Below are positions 20,221 through 27,009 of a DNA stretch of 64,000 nt, in pieces (the stretch's first letter is position 1; each line of letters begins with the position of its first letter). The stretch lies in contig NZ_KI911558.1 in assembly GCF_000515235.1 (NCBI RefSeq), positions 711,490-775,489 of the forward strand, written 5' to 3'. Source of the stretch: Synechococcus sp. CC9616 (lineage in GTDB: Bacteria; Cyanobacteriota; Cyanobacteriia; PCC-6307; Cyanobiaceae). The translations under genes and the position numbers were made by a program. The notes beneath the pieces were generated by a model. That model ran no database searches, had not been told where the DNA came from, and saw only the letters and a program-made list of their open reading frames with translations.

Positions 20221-20715
20221 ATGAGTGTCGTCCGGGATCTCATCCTCCAGGCCGATGAAGATCTGCGGTACCCCACCAGTGGCGAACTGCGAACAATCGT
20301 CGACTTCCTCGACCAAGGGGCACTCAGGGTGAGTGTTGTGCGTGTGCTCACGGACAACGAGAAAAAGATCGTGGATGAGTCGGCCAGACAACTCTTTTCC
20401 CGCAGACCGGAGTATGTCGCTCCCGGCGGCAATGCTTACGGTCAGCGCCAACGTGCGCAGTGCCTGCGTGACTACAGCTGGTATCTGCGCCTGGTGACTT
20501 ACGGAGTTCTTGCCGGAAGCACCGAGATGATCCAGGACATTGGTCTGATCGGGGCCCGCGAGATGTACAACAGCCTTGGCGTTCCCATGCCCGGCATGGT
20601 GGAAGCGATGAAAACGATGAAAGACGCTTCGATCGCCTTGTTGTCTGATCAGCAAGTCAAGGTTGCTGCTCCCTATTTCGACTTTCTGATCCAGGGAATG
20701 CAGACCTCGACCTGA
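20221..20715 (+). CDS. apcD: Allophycocyanin B alpha subunit
   Basis: A red-shifted phycobilisome core subunit that passes energy to photosystem I/II. The start MSVVRDLILQADEDLRYPTS and the segment RRPEYVAPGGNAYGQRQ match ApcD rather than ApcA or ApcF. Cys81 in QCLRDYSWYLRL is the phycocyanobilin attachment site. At 164 residues it is slightly longer than the common 161. As in other cyanobacteria it is a stand-alone gene, away from the apcAB operon. About 900 bases of unexplained sequence follow. Confidence 0.96.
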   Translation: MSVVRDLILQADEDLRYPTSGELRTIVDFLDQGALRVSVVRVLTDNEKKIVDESARQLFSRRPEYVAPGGNAYGQRQRAQCLRDYSWYLRLVTYGVLAGSTEMIQDIGLIGAREMYNSLGVPMPGMVEAMKTMKDASIALLSDQQVKVAAPYFDFLIQGMQTST

Positions 20716-20729
20716 GCCTCCTGATGAGG

Positions 20730-20966
20730 TCACTGTTGCCTCAAACGAATCTCGAGCTTGGACTCGAGTTGTGTCTCGACTGACCGCAGCAAGACTGATT
20801 GTTTCTTCTTAAATCCCTTAATCAGTCTTCCGGCCTTGATTCGGGGGAGGTCCTTGCTCTTGGCCTCATTGTTCTTTGTCCTTGCGATTTGTTCGAGCGC
20901 CGATAGCCGGAAAGGTGCTCGGCGCTCGGCGGGAGTGGAACACCGACAGAAATGCGTATTGAGCAA
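20730..20966 (-). CDS. Possible small basic protein (low confidence)
   Basis: A 78-codon frame with a TTG start, no good Shine-Dalgarno and no ATG. The product is strongly basic in its second half (IKAGRLIKGFKKKQSVLLRS) and ends in a charged helix (QLESKLEIRLRQQ). I do not recognise it. Its first codon abuts one of the AAGAC/GTCTT dyads. It may be chance coding, a degraded gene or a small nucleic-acid-binding protein. Confidence 0.25.
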   Translation of the reverse strand: MLNTHFCRCSTPAERRAPFRLSALEQIARTKNNEAKSKDLPRIKAGRLIKGFKKKQSVLLRSVETQLESKLEIRLRQQ

Positions 20967-20998
20967 GACTCATCAAAGTCTTGCTTTGAGTCTTTTTC
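20965..20998 (+). terminator. Weak terminator-like hairpin
   Basis: AAGACTC/GAGTCTT arms with a second AAAG/CTTT pairing, interrupted by a small bulge, are followed on the plus strand by a T-rich tract (20993-20997). It lies about 250 bases after apcD, so it could end a long apcD transcript or a separate small RNA. Low GC in the stem makes it weak. Confidence 0.35.
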
Positions 20999-21132
20999 TT
21001 GGACCCATACTAGAAACATAAGGCGCTCTCGTCGTGAGATTAAAACGGCACTGAAGTGCTCGACCTGGCCAAATGTGTGTTTCGATCATGCGCCAATTGA
21101 ACGTTTTCAGCGCACAAATACTCCGCAAAGTT

Positions 21133-21161
21133 TGCGTACCTGTGTTTGACACAGGTACGCA
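21133..21161. repeat. Perfect 12-bp hairpin
   Basis: TGCGTACCTGTG (21133-21144) pairs exactly with CACAGGTACGCA (21150-21161) around a TTTGA loop. No T run follows on either strand, so it is not a simple intrinsic terminator. It may be part of a structured RNA or a binding site. Confidence 0.7.
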
Positions 21162-21614
21162 TCTCTAAAAATCCAGTTCTGGTAACTATTTCCCGTGGGC
21201 AATCAGGATCCTGGACTGGACATGGACGGCGCAAACTGAGATCTGCAGGGTTTAGGGAGCCGGTGACCTCCCGCATGCCGACGCCTTTCAATTACGCAAC
21301 GAAGCCTTGAAGACTTTTGTATTTATGACGTCACCGCAAATAAAATGGTCGAAAAACTATTTGTTGTTATTTAGCAAGGGTCTCGCCTGGGACAAGACAC
21401 GAGTCCATAAACGGGTCTTATCTAAGAACAACAAGAGGCGGATGTGGGTCGGCTTTGCGGCACCTTGAAAAACGGCGATGCCCAAAAAGGCGGCTCAACC
21501 AACCAATGCTCGCTCGTGCTTCATCCCCCGCAAAACAGCCATGTGACTATTTGCATGTATCTCAGCTAAGACTTGATATGAGTCTTGTGAATCGTCCAAC
21601 ATGAGATAAACGAT

Positions 21615-22610
21615 TCAGCGTCGGTAAACTCCGCTGAGAAGCTGATAAGCCTCCGAAACGCGTCGCATCGACTCAGGGGACCCTCCCGTATCCGGGTGTG
21701 CATTCCTGGCACTGGTGCGATACGCCTCCTTGATCGATGACAGCGTCACTTCAGCGCCGGGTTGGGTTGACAGCCCCAAAAGCTTGAGTGCTCCGTGAAC
21801 GGTCATCGTTGATTCCAGCGTCTCGAACGATGTCACCTTGCGACTACGCCTGAATCGATTCACAAAGCGACGAATCATGGTGGGCATCCGCTCCGCCAGA
21901 TTGGCCGTTGCAAAGGGATCTTCCAGGGTTCCGGCCACGACCATCACCCGTCCAAGCGTCGGTGATTCCGTTGTCCATTGCTGGCAAAGATCGTGTACAG
22001 CGGCATTGGCTCCTGTCCAGGTGAATGGCCTGCCTTCACTGACATCAACGCTGTTCCAAAGATCTCTGGAAAGCCATGTGATGGCCGCCTCGACAACCGT
22101 TCCACCTGGAGGCTGACCGTACAAAGAGATCCAGTGATCATCAGCAGCCTTCAAGGCCTCCTGCAGGTCGTCATGGCTGACGGCAGCAACAACTGGATCT
22201 GACTCGGCGTTGCTAGAGCTGACCGCCGGAGCGCGCAGGGTTTGTTTGAGCTGGCGGCCACGTGTCCGCACAAATCCAGGCAAGTCGATGCCACCTGATT
22301 CAGGCGGCGGGGACTCCTGGGTTGCTGCTGCCTGGGGAGCCAAAGCACTTTCAGCCGGTTCGGCATCGTTTTGATCTAGTCGCCGGATCAGCACAAGACT
22401 GCTGGCTTCCTCGATCGGCTTTGAGGTTTCCGGTTGTTCCGGCTCGTTGTTCTCCTCTTCATCCTGATCAAGGAGATACTCCAGCAGCTGTTCGACAACA
22501 GCTCCTCGAGACCTCACCCCATAAACCGATTTGAGATTGTCGAGAGCGCTGATCAGCGCATCCGACAAAGCAAATGATGTTGTCCGCTTTCTGGATCCCT
22601 CGCCTGACAA
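21615..22610 (-). CDS. Ribbon-helix-helix-like and J-domain fusion protein
   Basis: A 331-residue protein with a J domain at the C-terminus (about 270-331; SSIKEAYRTSARNAHPDTGG carries the HPD motif needed to stimulate DnaK ATPase). The N-terminal 45 residues (TTSFALSDALISALDNLKSV then RSRGAVVEQLLEYLL) look like a ribbon-helix-helix DNA-binding unit. A long acidic Pro/Glu/Ser linker and an unassigned middle domain (about 140-250) lie between. The start codon is TTG at 22610, supported by a perfect AAGGAGG eight bases upstream. It is 24 bases after the DUF3370 stop and in the same frame. J domain is confident; RHH is inference. Confidence 0.82.
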   Translation of the reverse strand: MSGEGSRKRTTSFALSDALISALDNLKSVYGVRSRGAVVEQLLEYLLDQDEEENNEPEQPETSKPIEEASSLVLIRRLDQNDAEPAESALAPQAAATQESPPPESGGIDLPGFVRTRGRQLKQTLRAPAVSSSNAESDPVVAAVSHDDLQEALKAADDHWISLYGQPPGGTVVEAAITWLSRDLWNSVDVSEGRPFTWTGANAAVHDLCQQWTTESPTLGRVMVVAGTLEDPFATANLAERMPTMIRRFVNRFRRSRKVTSFETLESTMTVHGALKLLGLSTQPGAEVTLSSIKEAYRTSARNAHPDTGGSPESMRRVSEAYQLLSGVYRR

Positions 22611-22618
22611 AGGTTCGA

Positions 22619-22625
22619 CCTCCTT
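22619..22625 (-). promoter_or_regulatory. Ribosome binding site for the J-domain gene
   Basis: AAGGAGG on the minus strand, eight bases before TTG 22610. It is an exact anti-16S complement and decides the non-ATG start of the J-domain fusion protein; no ATG lies between it and the conserved N-terminus. Confidence 0.75.
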
Positions 22626-22634
22626 GCGAGACGC

Positions 22635-24179
22635 TTATCGAAGTTGCATCTCACGCAACCACTCCTGCTGGGTCTGGATCGCTTCCTGATAACGAGGAGA
22701 CGTGACAGGAGACGGGGTAGGACTTGTTAGAGGAGCCATCTGCATGGATGGAACAATCTTCGGCAAAGCCGGTTGATTGATCGGGAGTGCCTGAGTCACC
22801 GGCGGTGGAGCATTCGGTGAGATGGTCCGTCCCTTTTTACTGTCCAAACGTTTGCGGGCCTCCTGGAGTTGATTCTCTTGGCGCCGGAGCATCGCCAGCT
22901 GCTGCACAGGCACGACACTCAGCAAGTGCCCTGGCGTGGCATCAGCTGGATACACAAGGCTCAATTTGACGGGATTGGTCTGGCCTGGAATGAGATTCAG
23001 ATCGGCAAGAGTCAGGCTTTCTCCGGAACGAAGGCCAACATGCACCTCCCGGTAGCCCTCAACCGTTTCAATCCTGATCGAGCCACGGAAAGCTGTGAAC
23101 TGTTTTTTCCCGGAGACAACGGGATGACTCATCACCAATTGATGCGCACCGGACCCGCTGAGATTGAGGGTGACGTCGTAACGAACGCCATAGGTGCCGA
23201 TATTGTTGAGAGCCGAATCCGCCATGCGGGTTGAAAGAGGATTCACCTGCACATCTCGTGTGCCGAAATTGTGCCGGGAGGTGCTGGTGAGTGGCACGTG
23301 CAGGGGACCCTGTCGCAGGTCGTGCTGAATGTTGGCGTTGTAGGTGTCGCCCAGAGCCACACCGGCCACACGCGAAAACACGCGACCGAGCTGAATGTCT
23401 CGAATGCGATTGAGGTAGATCCTGCCGGGAGCCAGTCTTCCGGAATTCAACACTGAGATCAGCCGACCTGGATCGTTGGTTTCCTCAGCCGCGACCACCG
23501 CCATCGTGAAGGGACCGTCGCTGCGGCCATGAAGCAGGCCGTTGGCGATTCCGCGAGCTGGCAGCACCGTGCTCACTACGATGGCCTTCCCGCCGGGGGG
23601 GATGGTGATCGAAGGCTTCAGTTTTCGATCAAGTTCCTTTCGGAGCATCTGGACGGCCGTGGCATCTCCCGGGCCGGTGTTCCAGGGACGTTTTCCTAGG
23701 GGTTTCACCCCCATCAGGTTGTTGGGCAGATATGGGGCTTCAAAGCTGTTTTTGACGGATCCCTTGTCGAAACGGAGGGTGACGGGTTGTCTTCCAGGGT
23801 TACTGGCAATCAGAGCCAGAGTGAGCAGACCACGATCACGCCGCCCACCCATCTTTCTCTTGTCATCCGGGTAGTACTTGTGGTGCATGTGAACACCAAA
23901 CTCACCGTTGAAGGTGTAAGCCGGATTTCGTAGTGGCCGATTGGTTTCTGCGGCAAGGGCAGAGCCACTGGCTGTGTTCACCAGAATTCCGGGCCCCGTA
24001 ACGATCTCCGGTTGATTGGAGTGGAGTACGGGCACATTGTTGAACGTGCCATTGAGACCGCGCGCTCGTTGCCCTGCCATCAGCGCCACGTAGGCAGAGG
24101 CCATCGACGGGAGCCCAATCTCAAGGGTCGCAATGGAGACAATGCTCACGACCAGAATTGGGACTCGTCTGAGCATCAT
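22635..24179 (-). CDS. DUF3370 family exported protein
   Basis: A 514-residue secreted or outer-envelope protein of the cyanobacterial DUF3370 family; function unknown. The frame opens at 24353, but the tandem ATG-ATG at 24179 and 24176 precedes a clear signal peptide (Leu-Arg-Arg then a hydrophobic run to SMASA), so I start it there. The mature part has a His-rich HMHHKYYPDDKRK segment and beta-rich stretches. The last 80 residues are Pro/Gln-rich, with a helical QENQLQEARKRLDSKK before them. It is followed at 24 bases by the J-domain gene on the same strand. Confidence 0.8.
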   Translation of the reverse strand: MMLRRVPILVVSIVSIATLEIGLPSMASAYVALMAGQRARGLNGTFNNVPVLHSNQPEIVTGPGILVNTASGSALAAETNRPLRNPAYTFNGEFGVHMHHKYYPDDKRKMGGRRDRGLLTLALIASNPGRQPVTLRFDKGSVKNSFEAPYLPNNLMGVKPLGKRPWNTGPGDATAVQMLRKELDRKLKPSITIPPGGKAIVVSTVLPARGIANGLLHGRSDGPFTMAVVAAEETNDPGRLISVLNSGRLAPGRIYLNRIRDIQLGRVFSRVAGVALGDTYNANIQHDLRQGPLHVPLTSTSRHNFGTRDVQVNPLSTRMADSALNNIGTYGVRYDVTLNLSGSGAHQLVMSHPVVSGKKQFTAFRGSIRIETVEGYREVHVGLRSGESLTLADLNLIPGQTNPVKLSLVYPADATPGHLLSVVPVQQLAMLRRQENQLQEARKRLDSKKGRTISPNAPPPVTQALPINQPALPKIVPSMQMAPLTSPTPSPVTSPRYQEAIQTQQEWLREMQLR

Positions 24180-24396
24180 GAGGGGCTGTTGGACCGTTGC
24201 CAGGCGACCGGAGCGTGGTGCTTTGGCGAGGCCACAACCTAATCCGAGGATCGTTCTGCGCCAAGCACAAATCCGCCGATGACCCTCGGATTCCGCCAGG
24301 ATTAAAAGATAATCTGCGCCCAACATGCTCCCTCCCTTCTGCTGTAACAGCACCTCCGATTACGACTCACAGCTGCGCCATCACCAGCAACGAAAA

Positions 24397-24510
24397 ATGG
24401 CAATGCTCAGCTTCTGGCGTGATGGTCTTGAGAGGCAGCTGTCGGCCATCAATGCGGCGATCGGCACCCTGGAGCAACAGATCGAACGTGATTCTCAGAG
24501 CATGGGCTGA
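24397..24510 (+). CDS. Small conserved-looking helical protein
   Basis: A 37-residue product starting at ATG 24397 (MAMLSFWRDGLERQLSAINA) with a second half AIGTLEQQIERDSQ, forming one amphipathic helix. The frame is open from 24325, but the upstream codons give low-complexity sequence. Similar short 'FWRDGLERQL' proteins are familiar to me from picocyanobacteria, though I cannot confirm this here. The last 16 bases overlap the convergent sigma factor gene. Confidence 0.5.
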   Translation: MAMLSFWRDGLERQLSAINAAIGTLEQQIERDSQSMG

Positions 24511-25127
24511 AGCTCGTCAGCCGTTCTCGCGAGTTTGGTCAGTCCACGTTTGACACGTCGTTGGACGGTCATGGCTGAAACGCTGAATTTGCGTCCGGCC
24601 TGCCTCAGGCTTTTGCCTTCAAGGATCACCGCCTTGATTGCGACGCTTTCTTCTTTGGGCAGTTTGGTCAACGCCAGCATCAGCTCACGTTGATTCCCCC
24701 TCTGCTCAATGGCCTGGATGTCCTGGGTTTCACCAACCCAGTGATCCTCCTCCAGTGATGACCATCTCCCTTTGCTTTGGTAAAGCATCAGGATCTGACG
24801 ATCCTTGGGTGACAGGTCATTGCTGTTGCAACGCGTCAATCGTTGTCCCTTCTCCTCAACTCCTCGAGGCAATCGGATGATGCCGCTGCAGTCCCGCAGA
24901 TAGTGGAGGATTGCCCCTCGGATGTGGGGACGTGCGAAAGCGTTGAAAGGGGTCGAACGCTGTGCGCTGAATTGACGCGATGCCCGAATCAGGCCGAGTC
25001 TCCCGACTTGGGTGAGGTCATCAACATCTTCCCTGGTGCGGCTGGCGTAATGACGCGCAATGGGCGTTACAAGCTGCAGGTGCTGTTCAACAATCCTGTT
25101 GCGATGGTTGGTTCGTCGTTGTGTCAT
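24495..25127 (-). CDS. Small sigma-70 family factor (group 3-like)
   Basis: An alternative RNA polymerase sigma factor of 210 residues. Region 2 is visible as DVDDLTQVGRLGLIRASRQF and AFARPHIRGAILHYLRD (the -10 recognition helix). Region 4 is the C-terminal LPKEESVAIKAVILEGKSLR plus VSAMTVQRRVKRGLTKL helix-turn-helix. It lacks region 1 and has a shortened region 3, so it is closest to SigF/group 3 in overall form. Regulon unknown. It sits in a minus-strand run with SpoIID, the Ap4A phosphorylase and DUF3370 genes. Confidence 0.87.
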   Translation of the reverse strand: MTQRRTNHRNRIVEQHLQLVTPIARHYASRTREDVDDLTQVGRLGLIRASRQFSAQRSTPFNAFARPHIRGAILHYLRDCSGIIRLPRGVEEKGQRLTRCNSNDLSPKDRQILMLYQSKGRWSSLEEDHWVGETQDIQAIEQRGNQRELMLALTKLPKEESVAIKAVILEGKSLRQAGRKFSVSAMTVQRRVKRGLTKLARTADELQPML

Positions 25128-25205: not shown

Positions 25206-26069
25206 TCACGGAACCAATGGCACAACATCCCTGAGAAGTGACTCAGGACCGACGCGCTTCAGCCAGCTTCGGTCTGATGCGTCCGTACTCAGGAGATAGC
25301 CGGCAAACCCGAGAGCATTGACGCTGAACCCTTTCACGCCTTCGCAGCGCCGTCGAATCAAGGCAAGCCATCGTCGGCTCAGCAACAGGTTGTAAGGCTG
25401 GCCTGGCTTTTCAGAATTGGCAGGTGACCCCATTCCGGCGCGTTCACAGAGTTGCTCGTAGTGCTGGCACAGCTTTCTGGCCTCGGGTAATCGTCCGGGC
25501 AATGGCTGAATGAAGCAGTGGTGACGCAGCGGTGCGTCTCGATCGTTCAATGAACGCGGTGCTGAGGTCGTACCCCCTGCTTCAAACCAGGCCTCACGAG
25601 GACAGAGCTGTTCATGCTCATGACGCGGAAGCAACTGCAGATGGCGGTGAGGCTGACTAGCACCGGCCGCGGGCCCGCTGTTGAAGAACCACAATCCGGT
25701 TGTGTCGTTGTCGACATGAGTCACAGATTGCCAGTCCTCCAGGGTGAGCCAGCCTGCCTGGGGTGCCCAGTCCCGAGTGATCAGCAACATGTGACCGATC
25801 TGCACGGGATATTTGTTCAGGATCAGGACATGCCTGTCGCGCACCAGTGACACCTGAAGTTCATTGTTCCAAGGCCGGAATGGATTCGGTTTCGGTCCCG
25901 ATGCACGCAGGTGCCGGGGTGGCAAGCCTGTGAGATGTCGAAGCTCGTAGGCGATGCCGGACTCTCCAGAGATGCGCTCGAGCTCGGTCGACAGTGGCAC
26001 AAGCGCCGAGCTCGAAAGGGCTGCCTTACTGCGCTGCAGAGCCTTGGTCCAGTACGTCTCAGCCGCCAT
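25206..26069 (-). CDS. apa: ATP adenylyltransferase (Ap4A phosphorylase)
   Basis: Degrades diadenosine tetraphosphate to ADP and ATP. The HIT-like active site GASQPHRHLQLLP has histidines 141 and 143. The ILNKYPVQIGHMLLITRDW segment and the C-terminal PYNLLLSRRWLALIRRR match the APA1/2 family. The frame opens at 26123; ATG 26069 gives the standard 287-residue length and leaves an 11-base overlap with the SpoIID gene, consistent with coupling. The fold is a tandem of HIT-type units, and length is normal for the family. Confidence 0.9.
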   Translation of the reverse strand: MAAETYWTKALQRSKAALSSSALVPLSTELERISGESGIAYELRHLTGLPPRHLRASGPKPNPFRPWNNELQVSLVRDRHVLILNKYPVQIGHMLLITRDWAPQAGWLTLEDWQSVTHVDNDTTGLWFFNSGPAAGASQPHRHLQLLPRHEHEQLCPREAWFEAGGTTSAPRSLNDRDAPLRHHCFIQPLPGRLPEARKLCQHYEQLCERAGMGSPANSEKPGQPYNLLLSRRWLALIRRRCEGVKGFSVNALGFAGYLLSTDASDRSWLKRVGPESLLRDVVPLVP

Positions 26070-27009
26070 CGTGCTGCAGCCGTGCCAGTGATGCCCCCCG
26101 GTAGTAGTTGCCGAGGATTTCATTGAACTGAAGACCGTTCTGTGCCAGTTGCTGTGCGCCCTGTTGGCTCATGCTGGCCCCCAGATGACCGTGCGCTTCA
26201 GCACTGATGGAACTGGTCGCCGCATAGAGGCTCTCAACAATTCCACCCTTGTAGATGAGGACGATTCCACGGGTGCTTGCAGTGGCATCCCGGCTTCGCT
26301 GGCTTCTCGATCGATCGCCGCCATAGACCTGCCATCGGGTTGTGTCTCCAAGATGAAAATCCCTTGATGCGGGCCTTGCCAGATGGGCCAGGGCGTAGGA
26401 GCGAGCAGCCACAGCCTGGGCTTTGAGAGCTTCCAGATTCCAGCCACTCGGCATTTCAGCACCAACCACAGACGCCACGTACTGCTCGAGATCGAGTTCG
26501 TTCACAGCCATCCAACCCTGATCACGGAGCAAGAAGTCGATGTTGTGCCGATAAGGCACCTGATTGATCAGGATCGTGCCTCCTTTGCAACGGACAAACC
26601 CACGGCGTTCTCCCTGCAACATTGCGAGAAGAGCCTGATCTTTGATCCTTGGTCCAGTGTTGTTCACACGGCAGACCATTCCAGGGCTGGTCTGGAGACT
26701 GTTGATCGGCAAGCGACTCATCAATGCCACACGGATCGGCAGGTTGACCGATTCCCCTTGGGGAGGAACGTCAGGCACCATGAGGGCCGATACACGGGCA
26801 TCTGCCGATGGTGGCGGTGTCTTGCCTCTCGTCGGGGTCGCTTCTGCCTGGGGCTCTTCCAGGAGCTCCAGTAACGACTTGGTCGCTTGTTCAGCTGCAG
26901 GCTGAGTGTCCTGGGATGAATCGGAGATCATCTGGCTCGATCCAAGACTGATCGCCGCCACCATCAGGATCGGAACCACAACTACAGCCGCACGAACAAG
27001 CGAGGCCAC
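26059..27009 (-). CDS. SpoIID/LytB domain protein
   Basis: A membrane-anchored peptidoglycan-associated protein. An N-terminal hydrophobic segment (residues 4-24) is followed by a Pro/Thr-rich linker to about residue 80. The SpoIID domain proper runs from about 90 to 316 with ELDLEQYVASVVGAEMPSGW and LEALKAQAVAARSYALAHL as its hallmark motifs. In other bacteria such proteins are lytic transglycosylases acting on denuded glycan. The start is GTG 27009. It leads the run into apa, and both overlap by 11 bases. Confidence 0.88.
   Translation of the reverse strand: MASLVRAAVVVVPILMVAAISLGSSQMISDSSQDTQPAAEQATKSLLELLEEPQAEATPTRGKTPPPSADARVSALMVPDVPPQGESVNLPIRVALMSRLPINSLQTSPGMVCRVNNTGPRIKDQALLAMLQGERRGFVRCKGGTILINQVPYRHNIDFLLRDQGWMAVNELDLEQYVASVVGAEMPSGWNLEALKAQAVAARSYALAHLARPASRDFHLGDTTRWQVYGGDRSRSQRSRDATASTRGIVLIYKGGIVESLYAATSSISAEAHGHLGASMSQQGAQQLAQNGLQFNEILGNYYRGASLARLQHDGG

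Follow-up and report, generated by a model that had tools for sequence, protein, structure and literature searches.

A ribbon-helix-helix (RHH) domain, a conserved helical domain and an intact C-terminal J domain are kept together in one protein, here called RHH-J, across a family of relatives, as judged by sequence or by model. In Synechococcus sp. CC9616 its gene lies on the minus strand at 21615..22610 of the window, which is the whole 64,000-nucleotide stretch of DNA analysed here, and encodes 331 aa from a TTG start in the order RHH, linker, helical domain and J domain. The three-part protein is nearly universal and syntenic in one cyanobacterial family, and searches of the rest of the phylum did not find it. 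RHH-J is very probably a specialised DnaK recruiter. On balance we somewhat favour a more specific reading, that it is an RHH-dimerised class C (type III) co-chaperone, specific to this family, which delivers DnaK to a single specific client, possibly at DNA.

Both the RHH and the J domain are folds found in textbooks, and mixed architectures are well known among J proteins, which determine the sites at which DnaK acts. One that carries a dimer module of the DNA-binding type would give a direct handle on the role of Hsp70 at the chromosome in these photosynthetic bacteria. No description of an RHH-J fusion was found in the literature, in a search that was thin on subscription papers, so that its absence is not proven. 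In addition, the analysis has brought to light a conserved helical middle domain of about 110 residues without an assigned family.

The gene, its family and its domains

The open reading frame proposed in an earlier note on this DNA is present with the position, strand, length and start codon given above. The TTG is at 22608-22610 (-), and a Shine-Dalgarno-like AAGGAGG can be read from the sequence ahead of it at 22619..22625 (-), where the plus strand has CCTCCTT. A chance or artefactual reading frame was considered and rejected: the family is found in 190 of 200 genomes, and both its synteny and its reading frame are conserved. Start codons other than ATG are assigned to 31 of 37 loci of the family (GTG 22, TTG 9, ATG 6), a count made by a biased nearest-start rule and on which no conclusion is built. 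In neighbouring families, by a cruder rule, ATG starts account for 29 of 36 loci of a PheT-like gene and about half of the others.

Relatives were located in 70 fetched loci and 46 sequences, including that of the window, were aligned (alignment A1), leaving out near-duplicates and those whose start could not be placed by the start rule. When the whole window protein is compared with Pfam at E<=10, only two families are matched, and there is no canonical DnaJ region. These are DnaJ (residues 288-327, E 4.4e-6, 27.1 bits) and RHH_1 (residues 11-49, E 0.0056, 17.0 bits), both just below their cut-offs of 27.8 and 20.5 bits. Scanned as single stretches across the genome, both are over the cut-off here. 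The RHH_1 match reaches 20.5 bits, the sole one to do so among six RHH_1 places (E<=1), and the DnaJ match reaches 30.8 bits at one of the seven DnaJ places in the genome. In single scans of ten members, the RHH_1 cut-off is passed by L062 and L063, with the other eight below it, and the DnaJ cut-off by four (L029, L044, L048 and L062). Across the aligned family the DnaJ profile matches 46/46 members and RHH_1 matches 37/46 (E<=1). The whole-protein Pfam scores alone are marginal, and the family-level profile evidence is beyond chance.

The full-length AlphaFold2 model, made with the 46-row alignment, has a mean pLDDT of 78.2 and a pTM of 0.48. The RHH, middle and J domains are each mostly confident in it and the linkers between them are of low confidence, which leaves the placement of the domains undefined. 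Foldseek comparison of the whole model with the PDB gave no match at E<=0.001. The division made in the earlier note, an N-terminal RHH, a C-terminal J domain and an unassigned middle, is supported by the profiles, the conservation and the structure model.

The RHH domain covers residues 8-50 (22461..22589 (-)), with helices at 17-30 and 35-48, and its N-terminus is modelled with confidence, with block-mean pLDDT of 93-96 over residues 11-40 and 86-96 in the blocks of the RHH helices. By VIA, residues 7-51 superpose on NikR 2wvd (Z 6.6, 1.3 A over 45 residues) and residues 7-50 on the DNA-bound CopG 1b01 (Z 6.2, 1.3 A over 43), with NikR chains generally at 1.3-1.9 A over 44-47 residues. A VIA Z below 8 may arise from a widely shared arrangement, yet all eight proteins that align at the N-terminus are RHH proteins; six are NikR or CopG by title, and the other two are, we assume, the RHH antitoxins MazE-mt1 and ParD. 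The earlier note had inferred the RHH from its pattern alone, and the predicted N-terminal fold is indeed an RHH.

In the model, which is of a single chain, no strand is assigned to the ribbon itself (residues 9-15, 22566..22586 (-)); the strand of an RHH pairs only in the dimer. The column counts of the ribbon show the expected alternation, with hydrophobic positions 11 (Ile 39/46), 13 (Leu/Val/Ile 43/46) and 15 (Leu 43/46) between outward positions 10 (Arg 36/46), 12 (Ser/Thr 44/46) and 14 (Glu/Asp 34/46). The outward residues of the window protein are Thr10, Ser12 and Ala14, where other members commonly have R-S-E/D. Five residues of the domain are invariant in all 46 members: D24, R33, R35, G36 and L43. 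RHH-J thus shares with the CopG/NikR/MetJ/Arc superfamily (RHH_1, PF01402) the strand-helix-helix order, the alternating hydrophobic ribbon and a basic start to helix 2, as well as the superposition of the window protein's model on NikR and DNA-bound CopG. It differs in the acidic third ribbon residue of most members and in the helical and J domains that follow.

Behind the RHH is an acidic linker, residues 51-107 (22290..22460 (-)), which is modelled with low confidence (block-mean pLDDT about 41-54) and is of negative net charge in 45/46 members. It carries one short conserved motif, (S/A)(L/I)V(L/I), at about residues 71-75, in which V73 is invariant. The middle domain then occupies residues 108-262 (21825..22289 (-); alignment A2). 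It is entered through an I-x-L-P-x-F motif, and five helices follow at 146-164, 170-187, 198-208, 219-230 and 232-255, so that the conserved five-helix part is residues 146-255, or about 110 residues. Modelled alone, the domain has a pLDDT of 83.2 and a pTM of 0.73, again with five helices. Mean column identity is 58 % in the middle domain (A2) as against 43 % in the whole protein (A1), and Trp, Phe, Arg and Asp-Pro residues are invariant in it. We read this higher conservation, together with the invariant residues, as that of a specific partner-binding module, which would make the protein a dedicated DnaK recruiter for one client.

No family could be assigned to the middle domain. At E<=1, Pfam gives scattered weak matches to unrelated families, each in one or two members, and comparison with the PDB by sequence gives one match at E 0.91. 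By fold, the best matches are at E 0.25 in the PDB with Foldseek, Z 4.6 with VIA and E 0.32 in a viral library; such weak matches do not amount to proof of a new fold.

The J domain (residues 268-331, 21618..21809 (-)) is identified by Pfam DnaJ and by fold. Residues 269-331 match 2guz_B best by VIA (Z 10.6, 1.8 A over 62 residues). The DnaK-bound J domain 5nro_B is matched too (Z 7.3), as are many other J domains at Z 5-8. The HPD motif (residues 305-307, 21690..21698 (-)) lies between model helices 290-304 and 312-330, ends 24 residues before the C-terminus and is invariant in 46/46 members, which bears out the HPD-bearing C-terminal J domain of the earlier note. In helix II, position 294 is Arg or Lys, 297 is Tyr or Phe and 298 is Lys or Arg, each in 46/46 members. 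These positions presumably correspond to R22, Y25 and K26 of E. coli DnaJ, which contact DnaK. With the HPD and these helix II residues, the J domain has what a DnaK partner needs.

How unusual is a J domain at the C-terminus? RHH-J does not have the canonical class A/B DnaJ layout of an N-terminal J domain, a G/F region and zinc-finger/DnaJ C-terminal domains, and in comparison with canonical DnaJ the position is unusual, as the earlier note had said. Within cyanobacteria it is not, since other proteins there also end in a J domain: eight fetched proteins from eight genomes (L149-L156) have the domain at the C-terminus with an HPDxGGS motif. One of them (L149, 2521-3879 (-)) combines an N-terminal Rho_N domain (E 2.9e-6) with the C-terminal J domain (E 2.5e-9), so that a nucleic-acid-type domain joined to a C-terminal J domain is found in a second architecture. 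Four others (L150-L153), from one other cyanobacterial family (f24), are roughly 475-540 aa long, with the J domain at the end and no clear other Pfam domain. Like these five, RHH-J has a single J domain at its extreme C-terminus; unlike RHH-J, they have no RHH match.

Other J proteins provide further comparisons. The HPD, the basic residues of helix II and the HPDxGG loop are shared with class C (type III) J proteins of the short-loop HPD-x-GGS type (Tim14/Pam18), from which RHH-J differs by its RHH N-terminus and lineage-specific middle domain. CbpA (curved DNA-binding protein A) is a DNA-binding DnaJ homologue that begins with its J domain and has C-terminal domains of the DnaJ type. RHH-J differs from it in having the J domain C-terminal, and matches the CbpA model NF007618 in the J region only (E 0.042).

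Neighbourhood, distribution and losses

Upstream of RHH-J on the same strand are genes for a DUF3370 protein (22635..24353 (-), Pfam PF11850 E 9e-95, with the true start probably near 24176), a sigma-70 family factor with regions 2 and 4 (24495..25127 (-)) and an Ap4A phosphorylase (25206..26123 (-)), each recognised by domain profile and synteny. The other two of the five neighbours that were profiled encode a protein of the phycobilisome and one of the uracil methyltransferase type. In 41 loci, including that of the window, the typical order is Ap4A phosphorylase, sigma-70 type factor, DUF3370, RHH-J, phycobilisome protein (opposite strand), uracil methyltransferase type protein and PheT (opposite strand), the last being a name we assume from its sequence. 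Four of the 41 lack an RHH-J call in the automatic table, the likely cause being that the script kept a longer overlapping reading frame. The DUF3370 gene ends 24 nt ahead of the RHH-J start, a gap that makes co-transcription of the two likely. In compact-genome loci the Ap4A phosphorylase gene is the nearest upstream family gene and the sigma factor and DUF3370 are not seen in the neighbourhood; RHH-J stays.

Some minor features of this region were also observed. Inside the reading frame at 24325-24510 is a small frame of about 37 codons at 24397-24510 (+) (MAMLSFWRDGLERQLSAINAAIGTLEQQIERDSQSMG), convergent with the sigma-factor gene and overlapping its 3' end, which looks conserved in five genomes with mostly third-position changes. 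Between the sigma-factor gene and DUF3370, at about 24300-24390 (-), the leader has a GGGAGG followed by an ATG-like start and a TGCTTGGC block, all conserved in five genomes; this may be a short reading frame upstream of DUF3370 or part of a leader. On the other side of RHH-J, the approximately 900 bp at 20716-21614, between the phycobilisome gene (20221-20715) and RHH-J, have no Rfam or tRNA match.

In a search of the order, 191 of 200 genomes have a match at E<=1e-5. After checking, the count is 190, with G141 dropped as it has a different J protein only and with G193 included although its gene is cut by the contig start. Among the ten non-carriers, G036 has a remnant with 13 stops and G168 a broken RHH remnant; the rest (G105, G115, G141, G191, G192, G195, G196 and G199) have only other J proteins. 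All five genomes examined from one genus, g21 (G115, G192, G195, G196 and G199), are without the gene despite listed completeness of at least 95 %. Two of the non-carriers, G191 and G036, retain the flanking Ap4A phosphorylase and PheT genes 1.6-1.7 kb apart, which indicates that RHH-J has been lost from an otherwise kept place. Since it is absent or broken in several lineages, the gene is dispensable and its process is not essential everywhere.

The middle-domain profile matches 57 of 386 genomes of the phylum, all 57 in the window's own family. Outside the family, 20 of the 291 genomes of the class match, all towards the J end only. A scan of genome contigs found a single full-length relative, in Synechococcus sp. 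AG-670-F04 (L035); the other eight matches are confined to the J end. An origin from a phage or a plasmid was considered and rejected. There is no plasmid match, the phage matches (15 Aeromonas phage records) are at the J end only, and a viral-contig scan gave 32 pattern matches and no confirmed relative. In PHROGs the strongest matches are in the J region only, and those at the N-terminus (phrog_5354, phrog_16979, phrog_4738 and phrog_18767) are weak, at E 0.006 or worse.

DnaK recruitment and contact with DNA

How might RHH-J work? The RHH fold is an intertwined obligate dimer in known cases. By analogy, the RHH of this protein would form such a dimer, and each assembly would display at least two J domains, tethered by long, flexible acidic linkers. 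The middle domain would bind one particular client or partner, and the J domain would dock on DnaK, trigger ATP hydrolysis and load DnaK on the client. Less certainly, the RHH may hold the assembly at a DNA site or at a DNA-bound protein, in which case the target that DnaK remodels might be a nucleoprotein complex and not misfolded protein in bulk. The broadest form of this idea, a lineage-wide nucleoid- or operator-bound DnaK recruiter in picocyanobacteria, has the RHH-tethered J domain remodelling a particular DNA-bound complex, the middle domain acting as a new client-recognition domain and the whole being retained in compact genomes; we hold it tentatively, as possible rather than probable.

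That RHH-J acts on DNA at all is close to an even question, tilting slightly to the negative, and the RHH domain itself gives evidence in both directions. The start of helix 2 is where RHH proteins clamp the DNA backbone, and the invariance there of R33, R35 and G36, together with the common Arg at position 10, points to DNA contact. Against contact are a net charge of the RHH domain of only -3 to +2, which is not basic, and the acidic third outward ribbon position of 34/46 members as against 0/30 other RHH domains, a comparison set from 59 phylum genomes in which about 20 are close copies, leaving an independent sample of about a dozen, with the position read by eye. Nor does the DNA upstream of the gene show a conserved operator-like repeat. 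An acidic residue can contact cytosine, so that an acidic position 14 does not exclude DNA binding. The same observations bear on an alternative in which the RHH serves as a dimerisation module only, DNA contact having been lost, and RHH-J is a dimeric, client-specific DnaK co-chaperone that works off DNA with its client on the middle domain. The acidic ribbon residue, the near-neutral charge and the different outward ribbon of the window protein (T10, S12 and A14) argue for it, the invariant helix 2 start and Arg10 argue against it, and we consider it rather unlikely.

Is RHH-J instead a transcription factor that regulates itself, its J domain allowing DnaK to adjust how far it occupies DNA, as a stress-sensing repressor of the Ap4A phosphorylase - sigma - DUF3370 - RHH-J cluster? 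RHH proteins are typically autoregulatory, and the gene lies close behind DUF3370 in a conserved cluster that also contains a sigma factor. However, RHH-J stays in compact-genome loci from whose neighbourhood the sigma factor and DUF3370 are missing, and no shared palindrome or inverted repeat could be seen by eye when 14 loci with long gaps upstream were aligned. Repeats near the cluster are only two-arm, chance-like pairs, and in an alignment of five genomes one such pair, at 24241-24292, is shared with the closest relative at most. There is no CIRCE-like element in the window, where the only Rfam match is a tRNA at 2314-2387. This makes autoregulation improbable. More improbable still is that the J domain, like the J folds of the Pam16 type, has degenerated or is only a structural remnant and does not partner DnaK: its closest VIA fold, 2guz_B, is from the Tim14-Tim16 complex, in which Tim16 is presumably a J-like subunit without HPD, but degenerate J domains lose the HPD and here it is kept in 46/46 members along with the helix II residues. 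Nothing points to the partition-like factor that the earlier note had also suggested, and there is no ParA-like gene among the five profiled neighbours.

Of the readings above, a co-chaperone dimerised by its RHH and dedicated to one client remains the one we prefer. Its nearest functional precedent found is in Myxococcus xanthus. In the part of the source available (PMC10313047), the RHH and the chaperones of that species are separate proteins and no J-RHH fusion is described; the RHH nucleoid protein CdbA is there functionally linked to the PilZ-DnaK chaperones (CdbA/CdbS/PilZ-DnaK).
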